This document shows, piece after piece, positions 20,560 to 24,791 of a DNA stretch of 29,003 nucleotides. Where the stretch lies: positions 1-29,003 of the IMG/VR virus record IMGVR_UViG_3300017739_000073; one strand, written 5' to 3'. Below the pieces are notes generated by a model, which was given only the letters and a program-made list of their open reading frames with translations, did no database searches and was not told the origin of the DNA. This DNA comes from a virus. The stretch's first letter is position 1; each line of letters begins with the position of its first letter. The translations under genes were made by a program, and so were the position numbers.

Positions 20560-20874
20560 TTACTTCCCCAATCTATTCATCACTGCCTTTTCAAAAGCAG
20601 CGACATTTTGACTTGTTACATCCCCTTCGACACCCATTTTGTCAAAGTGAGTTTTTACAATTTTATTCTTATCCTCAATAGTTCTAGCATTTGTCAGGAT
20701 ATCTTCAGCCGTCGCGTCAACGATATCTTGAGTAACTTCTTTTGGCATAGCATTGTGATTTCCACGGTTCATTACTTGATTTACCGCATCAATCGCATTT
20801 TTAAGACCATCTGATTCACCACCACTAAAAGGACCGGCAGAGTCAAATCCACTACTAACATTATCTGATTCCAT
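20560..20874 (-). CDS. Hypothetical protein, 104 aa
   Basis: ATG 20874 follows GGAG with a 7-nt spacer and overlaps the stop of the fusion gene by one base. The N-terminus is Ser/Gly/Asp rich and probably disordered. A helical part follows (LKNAIDAVNQVMNRG, VTQDIVDATAEDILTNARTIEDKNKIVKTHFDKMG, AAFEKAVMNRLGK). No membrane segment, Cys or known motif is present. It is transcribed with the fusion gene and the 173-aa gene; role unknown. Confidence 0.6.
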   Translation of the reverse strand: MESDNVSSGFDSAGPFSGGESDGLKNAIDAVNQVMNRGNHNAMPKEVTQDIVDATAEDILTNARTIEDKNKIVKTHFDKMGVEGDVTSQNVAAFEKAVMNRLGK

Positions 20875-23135
20875 TATGAATCTCCTTTAAAGTATGTATC
20901 TGCAATTTCATTTACCTGTCCGGGTGTCATTCTTTTTCTTTTTCTTGTAAGAGCAGTCGTTCCCTCCAGATCATCATCTGAATATTCCTCTTCTCTTGCC
21001 TTTTTCTTAGCCATGTTTGTCGCAGTGCCGAAAATGACATCCTCATAATCATCTCCATATCGATTTTTAAAACCTTTTGCTCGTTTCTTCAAATCTTTAG
21101 CAAATTTGTCTCTAAGTTTTATTTCTTGTTTTGTCAAAACCTCTTCTTTAAGTTTTGTGGTCTTAATAAACTTCTTGCCCGGATCAACAACAATATGGAA
21201 TTCTTTCATGAAAGGGACACCAATCAAAACAGGAGTTCCCTTTTTGCTTCTATCATCTAAGGTGAATCTTCGTTTAACATACTTTTTATCAAGAAATTCT
21301 ATATCCAATTCAATCACATAGCGTTTTTCTTCATGTGCGCCGATGCCGCCCTCAAGAATAGTAAACTCATCGACAATTTTGTTCTTGAATTTTTTACCTT
21401 TGTGTGTCCATGAGATAGTTTTTCCATTTATTTTCATGGTATCCGCATGAATTGAGTTGACCGCCGTGTTACCAGTATCAAACTTTGCCTCGATGGGACC
21501 GATGCCCTCTACTGATATGACTTCTTTCCTACCAACAATTGTTGGGGGGTAATCCCAGTTATTTTTGTCGGTAATATATTTAACAAAAGTTTGCATCACG
21601 TTTCCAGATGAAACCTTTTCAATGCCCTCTGATCCCGGTGATGCGTTTACTTCAATAACATAAGGCTTTCTTCTACCTTTAGTAACAGCGATATCTACAC
21701 CGACAAAGTATCCACCCACCGCCTTTGCAGTTCTGAGGGCAAGTTTTTTGATCTCATCACTAATCTTTACTTGTTTGATAGATCCACCGAGAGAAAAGTT
21801 TGTTCTAAAATCGCCTTTGACTTTACTTCTCTCCATGACAGCGACAATTTGACCATCAAGAACAACGATGCGAAGATCCCCGTTAATATTAAGATACTCT
21901 TGGATAATCAACTCTTGTGAGTCATCAACTTTAAGAATAGCATCGAGTGTTGATTTTAGTGATTGTTCACTCTCAAGAATAAACACTCCCTTTCCCTTAG
22001 AGCCTGTGATTGTTTTTACAACCACTGGATAATTACCACCAACTTGCTTATGGGCATCCATTACATTTTCAGGGTCGGTAATCAACGCCGTTCTTGGTGT
22101 AGGAAGACCAGCCTCAACAAGTGTGAGTGCGGAGCGATACTTATCGTTGCAAATTTCGATTGAGTCCCTAGAGTTAATCACAAAGAATCCACTCTTTTCG
22201 AACGCCGAAACCATATCGAGAGTCGCGTTATTTTCTTGAGCAGCACCACGAACAATTACAACAGTGTCATGCCGATTTGCCACAAATTCTTTACCATCTT
22301 TATTGATAACTGTACGAGTCCCATCTGCATTTTTCACAGATCGGGCAAAGGGGACGAACGCGACGAAACACTCGACTCCGATTTTTTGTGCCTCTTCTTT
22401 GATTCGCTTCGCAGTTCTCATTAAGTTGTCTTTATTTTCTTCGCTATATCCAGAAAAAACTAGTAACTTAATTTTATCTCTAGAGACTTCTGCCTCCTCG
22501 GTGATAGTCCCACCGACAACGCCCATTCCTTTACGAACATCGTCAAAAAGTTTACGAGCCTGTCTATCTGATCCCGTGGTTGGGACACCTTGACGAAACG
22601 ACTTGAAGTCACCCTCGGCTGCTGCTGCTCTCATCTTTGATGCCGACATGCCAACAATACCCTCTGCATCAGGATCGCGTCTACCGGCACTAACGACCTC
22701 AAATGTGTTTAGATCTAAAGATTTATCTGGATCAGGATGATTGATATATGGTCTAACGGTTCTTTCAAACTCATCGGTTCTATCGCCGCCAACAACGACA
22801 GTAACATCCGTATATCCTTCATCAGCAAGATATCCCAAAGCCTCAAAAATCGTGCGAATCGAGGTGTTATACATAATATTAGCCTTCTTGAAAAAGGTTC
22901 GCATGTGCTTTGTTTTTGTTCTTGAATCTAGAGGATTCTTTTTCTTATCTTGGGAGTGGCTGGCAAAGATAAAATTGTCAGCGGATCTTTTTCTTGCTTC
23001 CTGTAAAACTTTGTTTACCAGTAGTTCATGACCAGATGTGGGTGGGTTGAAACGTCCAAACGTAAGAACCGCTTTCTTATTTCGACGCTCTTCCACGATG
23101 ACATTACGCCTCACTCCATTGTAGTGTGGTTTCAT
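20874..23135 (-). CDS. Three-domain fusion: nucleotidyltransferase + RimK-like ATP-grasp ligase + RimB-like aspartic protease
   Basis: Residues 21-200 form a cytidylyltransferase-type (HIGH-superfamily) domain: TFGRFNPPTSGH (25-36), VVVGGDRTDEF and GMSASKMR (162-169). Residues about 222-530 form an ATP-grasp ligase like RimK: VIVRGAAQENN, CNDKY, VVVKTITGSKGKGV with K374, QEYLNINGDLRIVV and VIEVNASPGSEG (493-503). Residues about 535-660 resemble the retropepsin-like 'ATP-dependent zinc protease'/RimB family (PF05618): EAKFDTGNTAVNS with D553-T-G, and VLIGVPFM (636-643). The C-terminus (665-753) is charged. RimK adds glutamates to ribosomal protein S6, and RimB modulates this in Pseudomonas. 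The N-terminus (I-V-E15) resembles a capsid-targeting sequence. Its SD is exceptionally complete, and a 25-nt inverted repeat flanks its start. Confidence 0.85.
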   Translation of the reverse strand: MKPHYNGVRRNVIVEERRNKKAVLTFGRFNPPTSGHELLVNKVLQEARKRSADNFIFASHSQDKKKNPLDSRTKTKHMRTFFKKANIMYNTSIRTIFEALGYLADEGYTDVTVVVGGDRTDEFERTVRPYINHPDPDKSLDLNTFEVVSAGRRDPDAEGIVGMSASKMRAAAAEGDFKSFRQGVPTTGSDRQARKLFDDVRKGMGVVGGTITEEAEVSRDKIKLLVFSGYSEENKDNLMRTAKRIKEEAQKIGVECFVAFVPFARSVKNADGTRTVINKDGKEFVANRHDTVVIVRGAAQENNATLDMVSAFEKSGFFVINSRDSIEICNDKYRSALTLVEAGLPTPRTALITDPENVMDAHKQVGGNYPVVVKTITGSKGKGVFILESEQSLKSTLDAILKVDDSQELIIQEYLNINGDLRIVVLDGQIVAVMERSKVKGDFRTNFSLGGSIKQVKISDEIKKLALRTAKAVGGYFVGVDIAVTKGRRKPYVIEVNASPGSEGIEKVSSGNVMQTFVKYITDKNNWDYPPTIVGRKEVISVEGIGPIEAKFDTGNTAVNSIHADTMKINGKTISWTHKGKKFKNKIVDEFTILEGGIGAHEEKRYVIELDIEFLDKKYVKRRFTLDDRSKKGTPVLIGVPFMKEFHIVVDPGKKFIKTTKLKEEVLTKQEIKLRDKFAKDLKKRAKGFKNRYGDDYEDVIFGTATNMAKKKAREEEYSDDDLEGTTALTRKRKRMTPGQVNEIADTYFKGDS
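23021..23045. repeat. Inverted repeat, arm 1 (inside the fusion gene)
   Basis: The 25 bases are the exact reverse complement of 23176-23200. This arm codes for residues about 31-38 of the fusion protein (around PTSGHELL). The 130-nt interval between the arms holds the start codon and SD. Confidence 0.95.
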
Positions 23136-23140
23136 AAGTC

Positions 23141-23151
23141 GATCACCTCCT
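23141..23151 (-). promoter_or_regulatory. Near-maximal Shine-Dalgarno for the fusion gene
   Basis: Read on the minus strand, AGGAGGTGATC matches the bacterial 16S rRNA 3' end (GATCACCTCCT) over 11 bases, 5 nt before the ATG at 23135. It is far stronger than other SDs in the window and sits in the loop of the 25-bp inverted repeat. Confidence 0.8.
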
Positions 23152-23175
23152 CGGTCTGGTTATTGTGTATGGTCA

Positions 23176-23200
23176 CCACCCACATCTGGTCATGAACTAC
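23176..23200. repeat. Inverted repeat, arm 2 (intergenic)
   Basis: It lies between the stop of the 40-residue gene (23204) and the fusion gene start (23135). It is the perfect reverse complement of 23021-23045. In the minus-strand mRNA the two arms would form a 25-bp stem enclosing SD, start codon and the first 30 or so codons. Confidence 0.95.
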
Positions 23201-23203
23201 AGT

Positions 23204-23326
23204 TTACTTATTCCACGGGAGATAAGTTCTGAGCCATTCAAACATGGGTTTGCCGATTAAAGCACCTAGTGTAAAACTAATAAGTGTGTGAGCGATAAAT
23301 CCGTAAGTGGTTGTTACAAAATCCAT
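23204..23326 (-). CDS. 40-residue membrane peptide
   Basis: This gene is short but well supported: ATG 23326 has AAGGAG with a 6-nt spacer, a CTAAATA box lies 36 nt upstream, and TAA is at 23206-23204. The product has one hydrophobic segment (VTTTYGFIAHTLISFTLGALIG) followed by KPMFEWLRTYLPWNK, a basic/aromatic end. It looks like a single-helix inner-membrane peptide. It is the first gene of the second minus-strand operon, upstream of the fusion gene and, much further on, the lysis cassette. It could be holin- or antiholin-like; no family recognised. Confidence 0.65.
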   Translation of the reverse strand: MDFVTTTYGFIAHTLISFTLGALIGKPMFEWLRTYLPWNK

Positions 23327-23361: not shown

Positions 23362-23598
23362 TTATTTAGTAGATGTTTTCTTCTTAGATGTGACTTTTTT
23401 ACGAGCCTTTTTTACTGGTTGTGGTTTCGGTGCTGGCTTAGTTTCCTCAACGAACCAACAAAGCCCTTTCCAGACAAGTTTAAATGCATTTCCTACTCTC
23501 ACGATAAATCTCCCTAAAAATCCGCAGATAAGAAGAAGAGCATCTCTCAAATCATCTTGAAACTTTTCTTCAAACCTTCTACCATCACCTTTTTTCAT
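23362..23598 (-). CDS. Small amphipathic, Lys-rich protein, 78 aa
   Basis: ATG 23598 overlaps the stop of the previous gene (ATGA) and has AAGGA upstream; a TTG at 23607 would add three codons. The N-terminal half has a hydrophobic/amphipathic helix (ALLLICGFLGRFIVRVGNAF, KLVWKGLCWFVEE). A Pro-Lys linker (KPAPKPQPVKK) leads to a very basic end (ARKKVTSKKKTSTK). The basic tail could bind DNA or membrane phosphates. It closes the cargo operon, and its stop codon lies in the CTAAATA box of the next operon. Confidence 0.6.
   Translation of the reverse strand: MKKGDGRRFEEKFQDDLRDALLLICGFLGRFIVRVGNAFKLVWKGLCWFVEETKPAPKPQPVKKARKKVTSKKKTSTK
23363..23369 (-). promoter_or_regulatory. CTAAATA late-promoter-like box (minus strand)
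   Basis: Read 23369 to 23363 it is CTAAATA, overlapping the stop of the Lys-rich gene and leaving a 36-nt leader before the ATG at 23326. It probably drives the operon from the 40-residue gene through the lysis cassette. Confidence 0.6.
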
Positions 23599-24791
23599 TT
23601 TGTCCAATCCTTTGCTACGTTAAAGTTTGCTCGGGAAAACTCCATACGATCTACGAGTTTTACGGCTTTTCCCGACCTATCAATTGCAACAAACCCTTCG
23701 GGGTCGGTCACTTTATATCCTGTGCTTGTTTTGATAAACGACGGCATGGTATTCAAAGCCTGTAATTTTTTTAATATAAGCATTTTAGCCCTTGCCAATT
23801 CATAGTGAGCAGTAAACAGTCCGTTTAGATCACGACTCATACCCCTCAACTCTTTTAACAAAATTTCCTTTTCTTCTTCGACACGCTCTTTCGCTTTTTC
23901 TGTTTTGAGTTTTTTAATCTTCAAATCAAATCGTGTCATAATAAATCCAGCAAAACTTTTAGTTGTCCCCCTATCAACACCTTCACGAACATTCGCATTG
24001 AGGTAAATTTTTATCAAATCTTTCAAGTCACTACTTACAATTTGTCTCAAAGTTTTTTTAGACTTTGCGATATTCTTTTCAGTAATATCAATTAATTTTT
24101 TCATCCTTGCTTCTTCGGTTGATGTAAGAGTCGCCCTACCAGAAACATCTTTGTAAGACGCATCTTGATACCAAACTTTTCTAGACGCTTTCAAACCAGA
24201 AACATCTGCACCGAAAGATGCTTTAAGATTTTCTATTGTGTCACCGTTGTAAGTGGTGTGAAAAACGATCCCCATTTTTGAAGTGTTTATTTTACTCGCC
24301 AGATCACTTCCAGCAGGAACAGCGTATGTAATCGTGTTCGGAGTAAATGACACCATCGACTCACCATCAATGGTCTGTGCGGATAGATCGTCTTTCGTGT
24401 AAAGCATATCTCCCTGCAAAACACCAGTAATGCCCAAATCCTTTAGGTTTGCAAGTGCGACTTTTAACTTATCTGCCAACCCTCCACTGTGGTTGGCATC
24501 AATATCAGCATTTGTGTAATTGATCTTCGGTATTTTGTTAAACAAAGATTTTGTCGCCACGAAAAACTTTCCATTCTCTGGATTGATTCCTGTGAACAAG
24601 GCTGGTGCGCCGTCCCACTTTACTGTAACGTTCACTGGGCTTTTTGCATTTCCTTTGAGCATTTCCGCCAAAGATTTGATAAATGCAATAGCCTCTTTGA
24701 CACCCACCTCGCCACGATTGAACATCTCATCTTCAAGATGCTCAAGGTGCAAGTTTTTTTGCTCTGTGAGGAAGGTGGTAAAAGTTCTCAT
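23595..24791 (-). CDS. KxDG nucleotidyltransferase-like protein (DUF6267-like) with capsid-targeting-like N-terminus
   Basis: A 398-aa protein of a family common in T4-like marine phages. V-K58-W-D60-G61-A-P-A has the K-x-D-G form of the AMP-accepting motif I of DNA/RNA ligases. It is followed by KFFVATKSLFNK (75-86), VLQGDML (124-130, motif III-like), ITYAVPAGSD and MGIVFHTTYNG (173-183, motif IV-like). A ligase or capping-type nucleotidyl transfer is therefore possible; activity in this family is not established to my knowledge. The second half is helical with charged stretches (KIKKLKTEKAKERVEEEKE). The N-terminus M-R-T-F-T-T-F-L-T-E10 fits the shared capsid-targeting-like peptide. It overlaps both neighbours by 4 nt. 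Confidence 0.75.
   Translation of the reverse strand: MRTFTTFLTEQKNLHLEHLEDEMFNRGEVGVKEAIAFIKSLAEMLKGNAKSPVNVTVKWDGAPALFTGINPENGKFFVATKSLFNKIPKINYTNADIDANHSGGLADKLKVALANLKDLGITGVLQGDMLYTKDDLSAQTIDGESMVSFTPNTITYAVPAGSDLASKINTSKMGIVFHTTYNGDTIENLKASFGADVSGLKASRKVWYQDASYKDVSGRATLTSTEEARMKKLIDITEKNIAKSKKTLRQIVSSDLKDLIKIYLNANVREGVDRGTTKSFAGFIMTRFDLKIKKLKTEKAKERVEEEKEILLKELRGMSRDLNGLFTAHYELARAKMLILKKLQALNTMPSFIKTSTGYKVTDPEGFVAIDRSGKAVKLVDRMEFSRANFNVAKDWTK

Follow-up and report, generated by a model that had tools for sequence, protein, structure and literature searches.

A perfect inverted repeat that has one of its copies within a coding sequence and the other just behind the stop codon of the preceding gene raises the question as to whether it forms a control element in the mRNA or is the trace of an accident during DNA replication. 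Such a repeat is present in the 29,003-nt stretch of viral DNA analysed here (IMG/VR record IMGVR_UViG_3300017739_000073, positions 1 to 29,003; hereafter the window). A sequence-only reading of the window had described two perfectly matching arms of 25 nt, one of them coding and the other past the stop of a gene for a 40-residue protein, with an 11-base Shine-Dalgarno (SD) sequence and an ATG in the loop between them; both the coordinates and this placement are confirmed (Table 1).

The inverted repeat and its locus

The two arms are exact reverse complements over 25/25 nt and are spaced 130 nt apart. A chance match of this kind had been judged very unlikely in 29 kb, and the computed expectation for the 29-kb window amounts to ~8e-9. 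No second perfect repeat of a comparable kind is present within the window. RNA folding of 351 nt predicts that the stem forms (-100.7 kcal/mol, z -3.5). None of the Rfam covariance models matches the element, and an intrinsic terminator was rejected, the loop being 130 nt long and a T-run being absent after the 3' arm.

Table 1 Features of the locus, with positions in the window
Feature	Position	Strand	Remarks
Late-promoter-like motif ACTAAATAA	23362..23370	-	36-44 nt upstream of the small gene
Gene for the 40-aa small protein (MDFVTTTYGFIAHTLISFTLGALIGKPMFEWLRTYLPWNK)	23204..23326	-	Stop codon 23204-23206; membrane location predicted from sequence
5' noncoding stem arm GTAGTTCATGACCAGATGTGGGTGG	23176..23200	-	Begins 3 nt past the small-gene stop codon
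Extended Shine-Dalgarno sequence AGGAGGTGATC, in the loop	23141..23151	-	Same in 8/8 E-type loci; 11 nt that we take to be complementary to the 16S rRNA 3' end
ATG start of the fusion gene, within the loop	23133..23135	-	
3' coding stem arm, codons 31-39 (PPTSGHEL + 1 base) of the fusion gene	23021..23045	-	In nucleotidyltransferase motif GRFNPPTSGHELL
753-aa fusion gene: cytidylyltransferase-like, RimK-like ATP-grasp and RimB-like protease domains	20874..23135	-	Pfam and PHROG matches

The RimB-like part of the fusion protein is a retropepsin-type domain, and a RimB-RimK hybrid enzyme is known from bacteria (PMC11957791). Relatives of the fusion gene are variable in length and in their middle regions, that of L197, for example, encoding 1047 aa. 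PHROG 455 matches the products of both 23595-24791 and 20874-23135 (both minus strand), over profile positions 22-341 and 420-629, and the two genes may therefore equal one protein elsewhere; in the window, two small genes and the hairpin lie between them. The 40-aa protein itself has no match in Pfam or PHROG. A family of probable membrane proteins of 38-44 aa with a C-terminal PWNK is conserved across the phage clade that carries the element. For comparison with the motif upstream of the small gene, the T4/cyanophage late promoter reads NATAAATA/TATAAATA (PMC2984593).

Pairing between the arms in related loci

The exact 25-mer occurs in one further viral contig (L004/L038; protein 98% and DNA ~95% identical), in which both arms and the whole stretch from ~45 nt before the end of the small gene to about codon 25 of the fusion gene are identical to the window. 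Over ~196 nt the two contigs have 0 substitutions, synonymous sites of the loop included, and the flanking DNA is ~5% different. An assembly fold-back is thus ruled out, since this independent contig carries the unchanged repeat and distant relatives carry altered yet pairing versions. At 72% protein identity (L005/L039 and L006/L040), the arms still match over 25/25 nt, reading ACAGTTCGTGACC... in place of GTAGTTCATGACC..., with three pairs altered on both sides relative to the window. AAAGTTCATGACCGG-GGTGGGTGG is kept in L042, L043 and L190 with a one-base bulge, and in L041 with bulges. Pairing is retained even in distant loci with differing arm sequences (L044, L045, L212, L192, L194, L198 and L204), in four of which (L044, L045, L212 and L204) the distance between the SD-like sequence and the ATG is too great for a normal SD.

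The sequence-only reading had proposed a search of relatives for compensatory changes between the arms, and these are indeed present. In a plain MAFFT alignment of 15 loci, made from sequence only and not fitted to the structure, 89.2% of the cells in the 25 named pairs are paired, and 42 cells, spread over 11 pairs, are altered on both sides. This number compares with a mean of 16.4 after shuffling (0/500 shuffles reach 42) and with 5-10 for slid partners; likewise, the covariation score is 0.305 vs. 0.103 for shuffled and at most 0.090 for slid partners. The shuffles ignore relatedness, whereas the slid-partner control retains it. The E-type loci alone are 96.9% paired, with 13 compensated cells. 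Among the non-Watson-Crick cells, 17 are G.U vs. 25 A.C in the unfitted alignment, and about 6 vs. 2 in the core helices as read by eye.

RNAduplex scores of the upstream region against the motif range from z -3.5 to -11.2 in stem loci and are near 0 for most of the ~125 other cytidylyltransferase loci (mononucleotide shuffles); a few non-stem loci reach z -2 to -5, including L286 (-4.7) and L211 (-3.1), with no credible helix by Watson-Crick alignment. Six distinct perfect inverted repeats of at least 15 nt with loops of 30-330 nt were retrieved from 1.15 Mb of related loci, and each of them is the element or its noncoding counterpart.

It had been suggested that only one of the arms, the coding one, is constrained. 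This is wrong: mean identity among six E-type lineages is 79% in the noncoding arm, almost that of the coding arm (85%) and far above the adjoining spacer (38%); the SD is 100% identical. Strong synonymous constraint on the coding arm was not found in the E-type loci, where identical synonymous codons make up 55% of the arm vs. 53% of the rest; for non-stem pairs the values are 35% and 45%. Conservation at synonymous sites of the coding arm is just mildly above expectation.

Distribution, gene arrangement and alternative hairpins

Only uncultured T4-like phages of one clade have the element. This clade (support 100/96; 28 of 140 tree rows) contains every stem locus, as well as loci with the small gene but without the stem, and loci with an alternative hairpin. 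The small gene lies directly 5' of the element in all stem loci, preceded in 14/15 by a TAAATA late-promoter-like motif at 35-56 nt, and the helix base is located about 0-11 nt past the small-gene stop codon in stem and alternative-hairpin loci alike. In most cases the loop of the element contains an extended SD. No stem is present in L206, L207, L211, L220, L221, L246 and L231, where the small gene runs directly up to the start of the cytidylyltransferase gene. Records of cultured phages gave no convincing match to the small gene, the sole match being a tape-measure protein, by chance (E 3), and 0 of 444 cytidylyltransferase records reach 60% identity; the stem scan covered part of the cultured loci.

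Four relatives (L213, L214, L215 and L248) have a different, fully noncoding hairpin directly after the small gene (e.g. L248:2841-2916, with arms AACCCCACCGATTTTCAT and ATGAAAATCGGTGGGGTT). Paired changes in its stem separate L214 from L213, L215 and L248. The loop contains AAGGAGGTGGTCC, a near-complete complement of the 16S 3' end, after which a start codon at the usual distance is lacking. Between this hairpin and the cytidylyltransferase gene lie a terminator-like hairpin, which has a T-run, and a late-promoter-like motif. Its position and loop sequence suggest that the alternative hairpin is related to the stem element.

Proposed function and competing explanations

The compensatory changes in relatives indicate that the pairing is maintained and argue against a recent copying accident. 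Selection on the pairing is well supported by this comparison of loci, and the hairpin is very probably a working control element. The sequence-only reading had offered regulation of translation or RNA decay, an action in transcription and the trace of a template switch as explanations; to these, the compensatory changes add that the pairing is maintained, and they single out no one function. We favour, at a probability of roughly 0.58, a conserved cis-acting mRNA hairpin that marks off two cistrons of a late phage mRNA from each other. It likely acts as RNA, in the sense transcript.

With RNA polymerase past about codon 40 of the fusion gene, codons 31-39 would pair with the segment behind the small-gene stop, and the paired arms would close a loop around the ribosome-binding site, the start codon and the first 30 codons of the fusion gene. 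The folded hairpin would set a 25-bp duplex ahead of elongating ribosomes, which could be opened by translation of the small gene up to its stop codon and by active translation of the fusion gene. The fusion gene may thereby be translated only from newly made or already ribosome-loaded mRNA, and the helix may couple its translation to that of the small gene, which ends with its stop codon at the helix base. It may also protect the mRNA of the small gene or direct its processing, for example by RNase III, for which a 25-bp duplex is of sufficient length, and might define an mRNA end. In the helix-less relatives, the close stop/start junction would serve instead.

A different and less probable account holds that the noncoding arm arose by template switching between the inverted arms as the DNA was replicated, and that such switching keeps it matched to the coding arm, which would make a function unnecessary. 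There is precedent for this: perfect stems and compensatory changes are among the reported products of template switching (PMC8794818), as is homogenisation of the arms of inverted repeats (PMC8604942), and the element resembles the inverted repeats and RNA hairpins of those studies in its perfect stems and in multi-base compensatory change between the arms. The nearly normal synonymous rate of the coding arm, with a noncoding arm that tracks its changes, would fit, as would L044/L045, where the mirrored stretch extends over ~60 nt, with gaps, as expected of an inverted copy. Unlike in template-switch repeats, however, one arm is protein-coding and the ends of the helix are fixed, the inner end being constant across E-type lineages (after the codon before Pro31) with unmatched flanks. 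Moreover, bulges and one-sided changes persist across lineages without repair (L042/L043/L190 and L044/L045/L212), the four relatives with the alternative hairpin have it at the equivalent place without a coding arm, and the element is clade-specific and linked to gene arrangement. No ancestral state that has the spacer and lacks the arm was found. Taken by its parts, template switching is probably the origin of the noncoding arm, and it may help to keep the stem perfect.

The hairpin might instead have its main role in the mRNA of the small gene, where it would protect the 3' end or be a processing site for RNase III, its overlap with the fusion-gene start being incidental. The existence of the alternative hairpins argues that the small gene has a share in the function: they sit away from the fusion-gene start, separated from it by the terminator-like hairpin and late-promoter-like motif, and the base of the helix is never beyond about 11 nt from the small-gene stop. 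As the whole explanation this is unlikely, given that in the stem loci the 3' arm is placed within the following gene, 87-101 nt separating the SD-like sequence from the nucleotidyltransferase motif, a costly arrangement for a plain 3' protector.

More doubtful still is a ribosome-presenting RNA element, the loop of which would show a near-complete complement of the 16S rRNA 3' end and dock the 30S subunit for a purpose other than plain initiation, such as stabilising late mRNA or sensing ribosomes on which the RimK/RimB-like protein, a product of some of these genes, has acted. Near-complete complements are present in the loops of L194 (AAGGAGGTGATCCAG) and L215 (AAGGAGGTGGTCCAG, with no gene behind it). 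Finally, the start region lies between two perfect 25-bp inverted sites, at which recombination could invert the DNA and so turn the ribosome-binding site and start codon around as a switch, but this is very improbable, as all loci read have the loop in one orientation only, the arms have bulges and lineage-specific sequences, and no site-specific recombinase was found among the window genes scanned.

Relation to known systems and significance

Long-distance interactions of the MS2 type control translation of phage genes. The proposed cistron-boundary hairpin resembles them in that coding sequence of a phage mRNA pairs over a long range with a leader or other upstream segment, a pairing that ribosomes and co-transcriptional folding would open. 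It differs in belonging to the late transcript of a DNA phage, in enclosing the SD without covering it, and in being known from sequence alone. In the icaR mRNA of S. aureus, a long-range duplex between the 5' and 3' UTRs at the ribosome-binding region is an RNase III substrate (PMC3868564). Both are intramolecular long-range mRNA duplexes near a ribosome-binding region; however, icaR pairs the SD region itself, with the 3' UTR, whereas the phage hairpin has a coding-region partner and leaves the SD unpaired in the loop. An SD-sequestering hairpin like that of icaR was rejected on these grounds, the predicted accessibility of the SD and AUG showing no consistent change with the stem. The literature on long-range pairing at start regions, as far as it was covered, contains no matching element. 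Thus, control of translation by long-range mRNA pairing is known; what is new is that the SD is enclosed instead of paired, and that one strand lies in the coding sequence of a catalytic motif.

Starting from a single sequence, the analysis adds to uncultured T4-like phages a new RNA structure with comparatively good support. Because one strand of the helix encodes part of an enzyme's conserved catalytic motif, constraints on protein and RNA fall on identical bases. The element is also well suited to asking whether perfect stems are kept up by selection or by template switching. The clade offers three natural solutions at one gene junction (the stem, a noncoding hairpin and a direct stop/start junction), and with these natural alternatives the question as to whether long-range pairing can replace translational coupling becomes testable.
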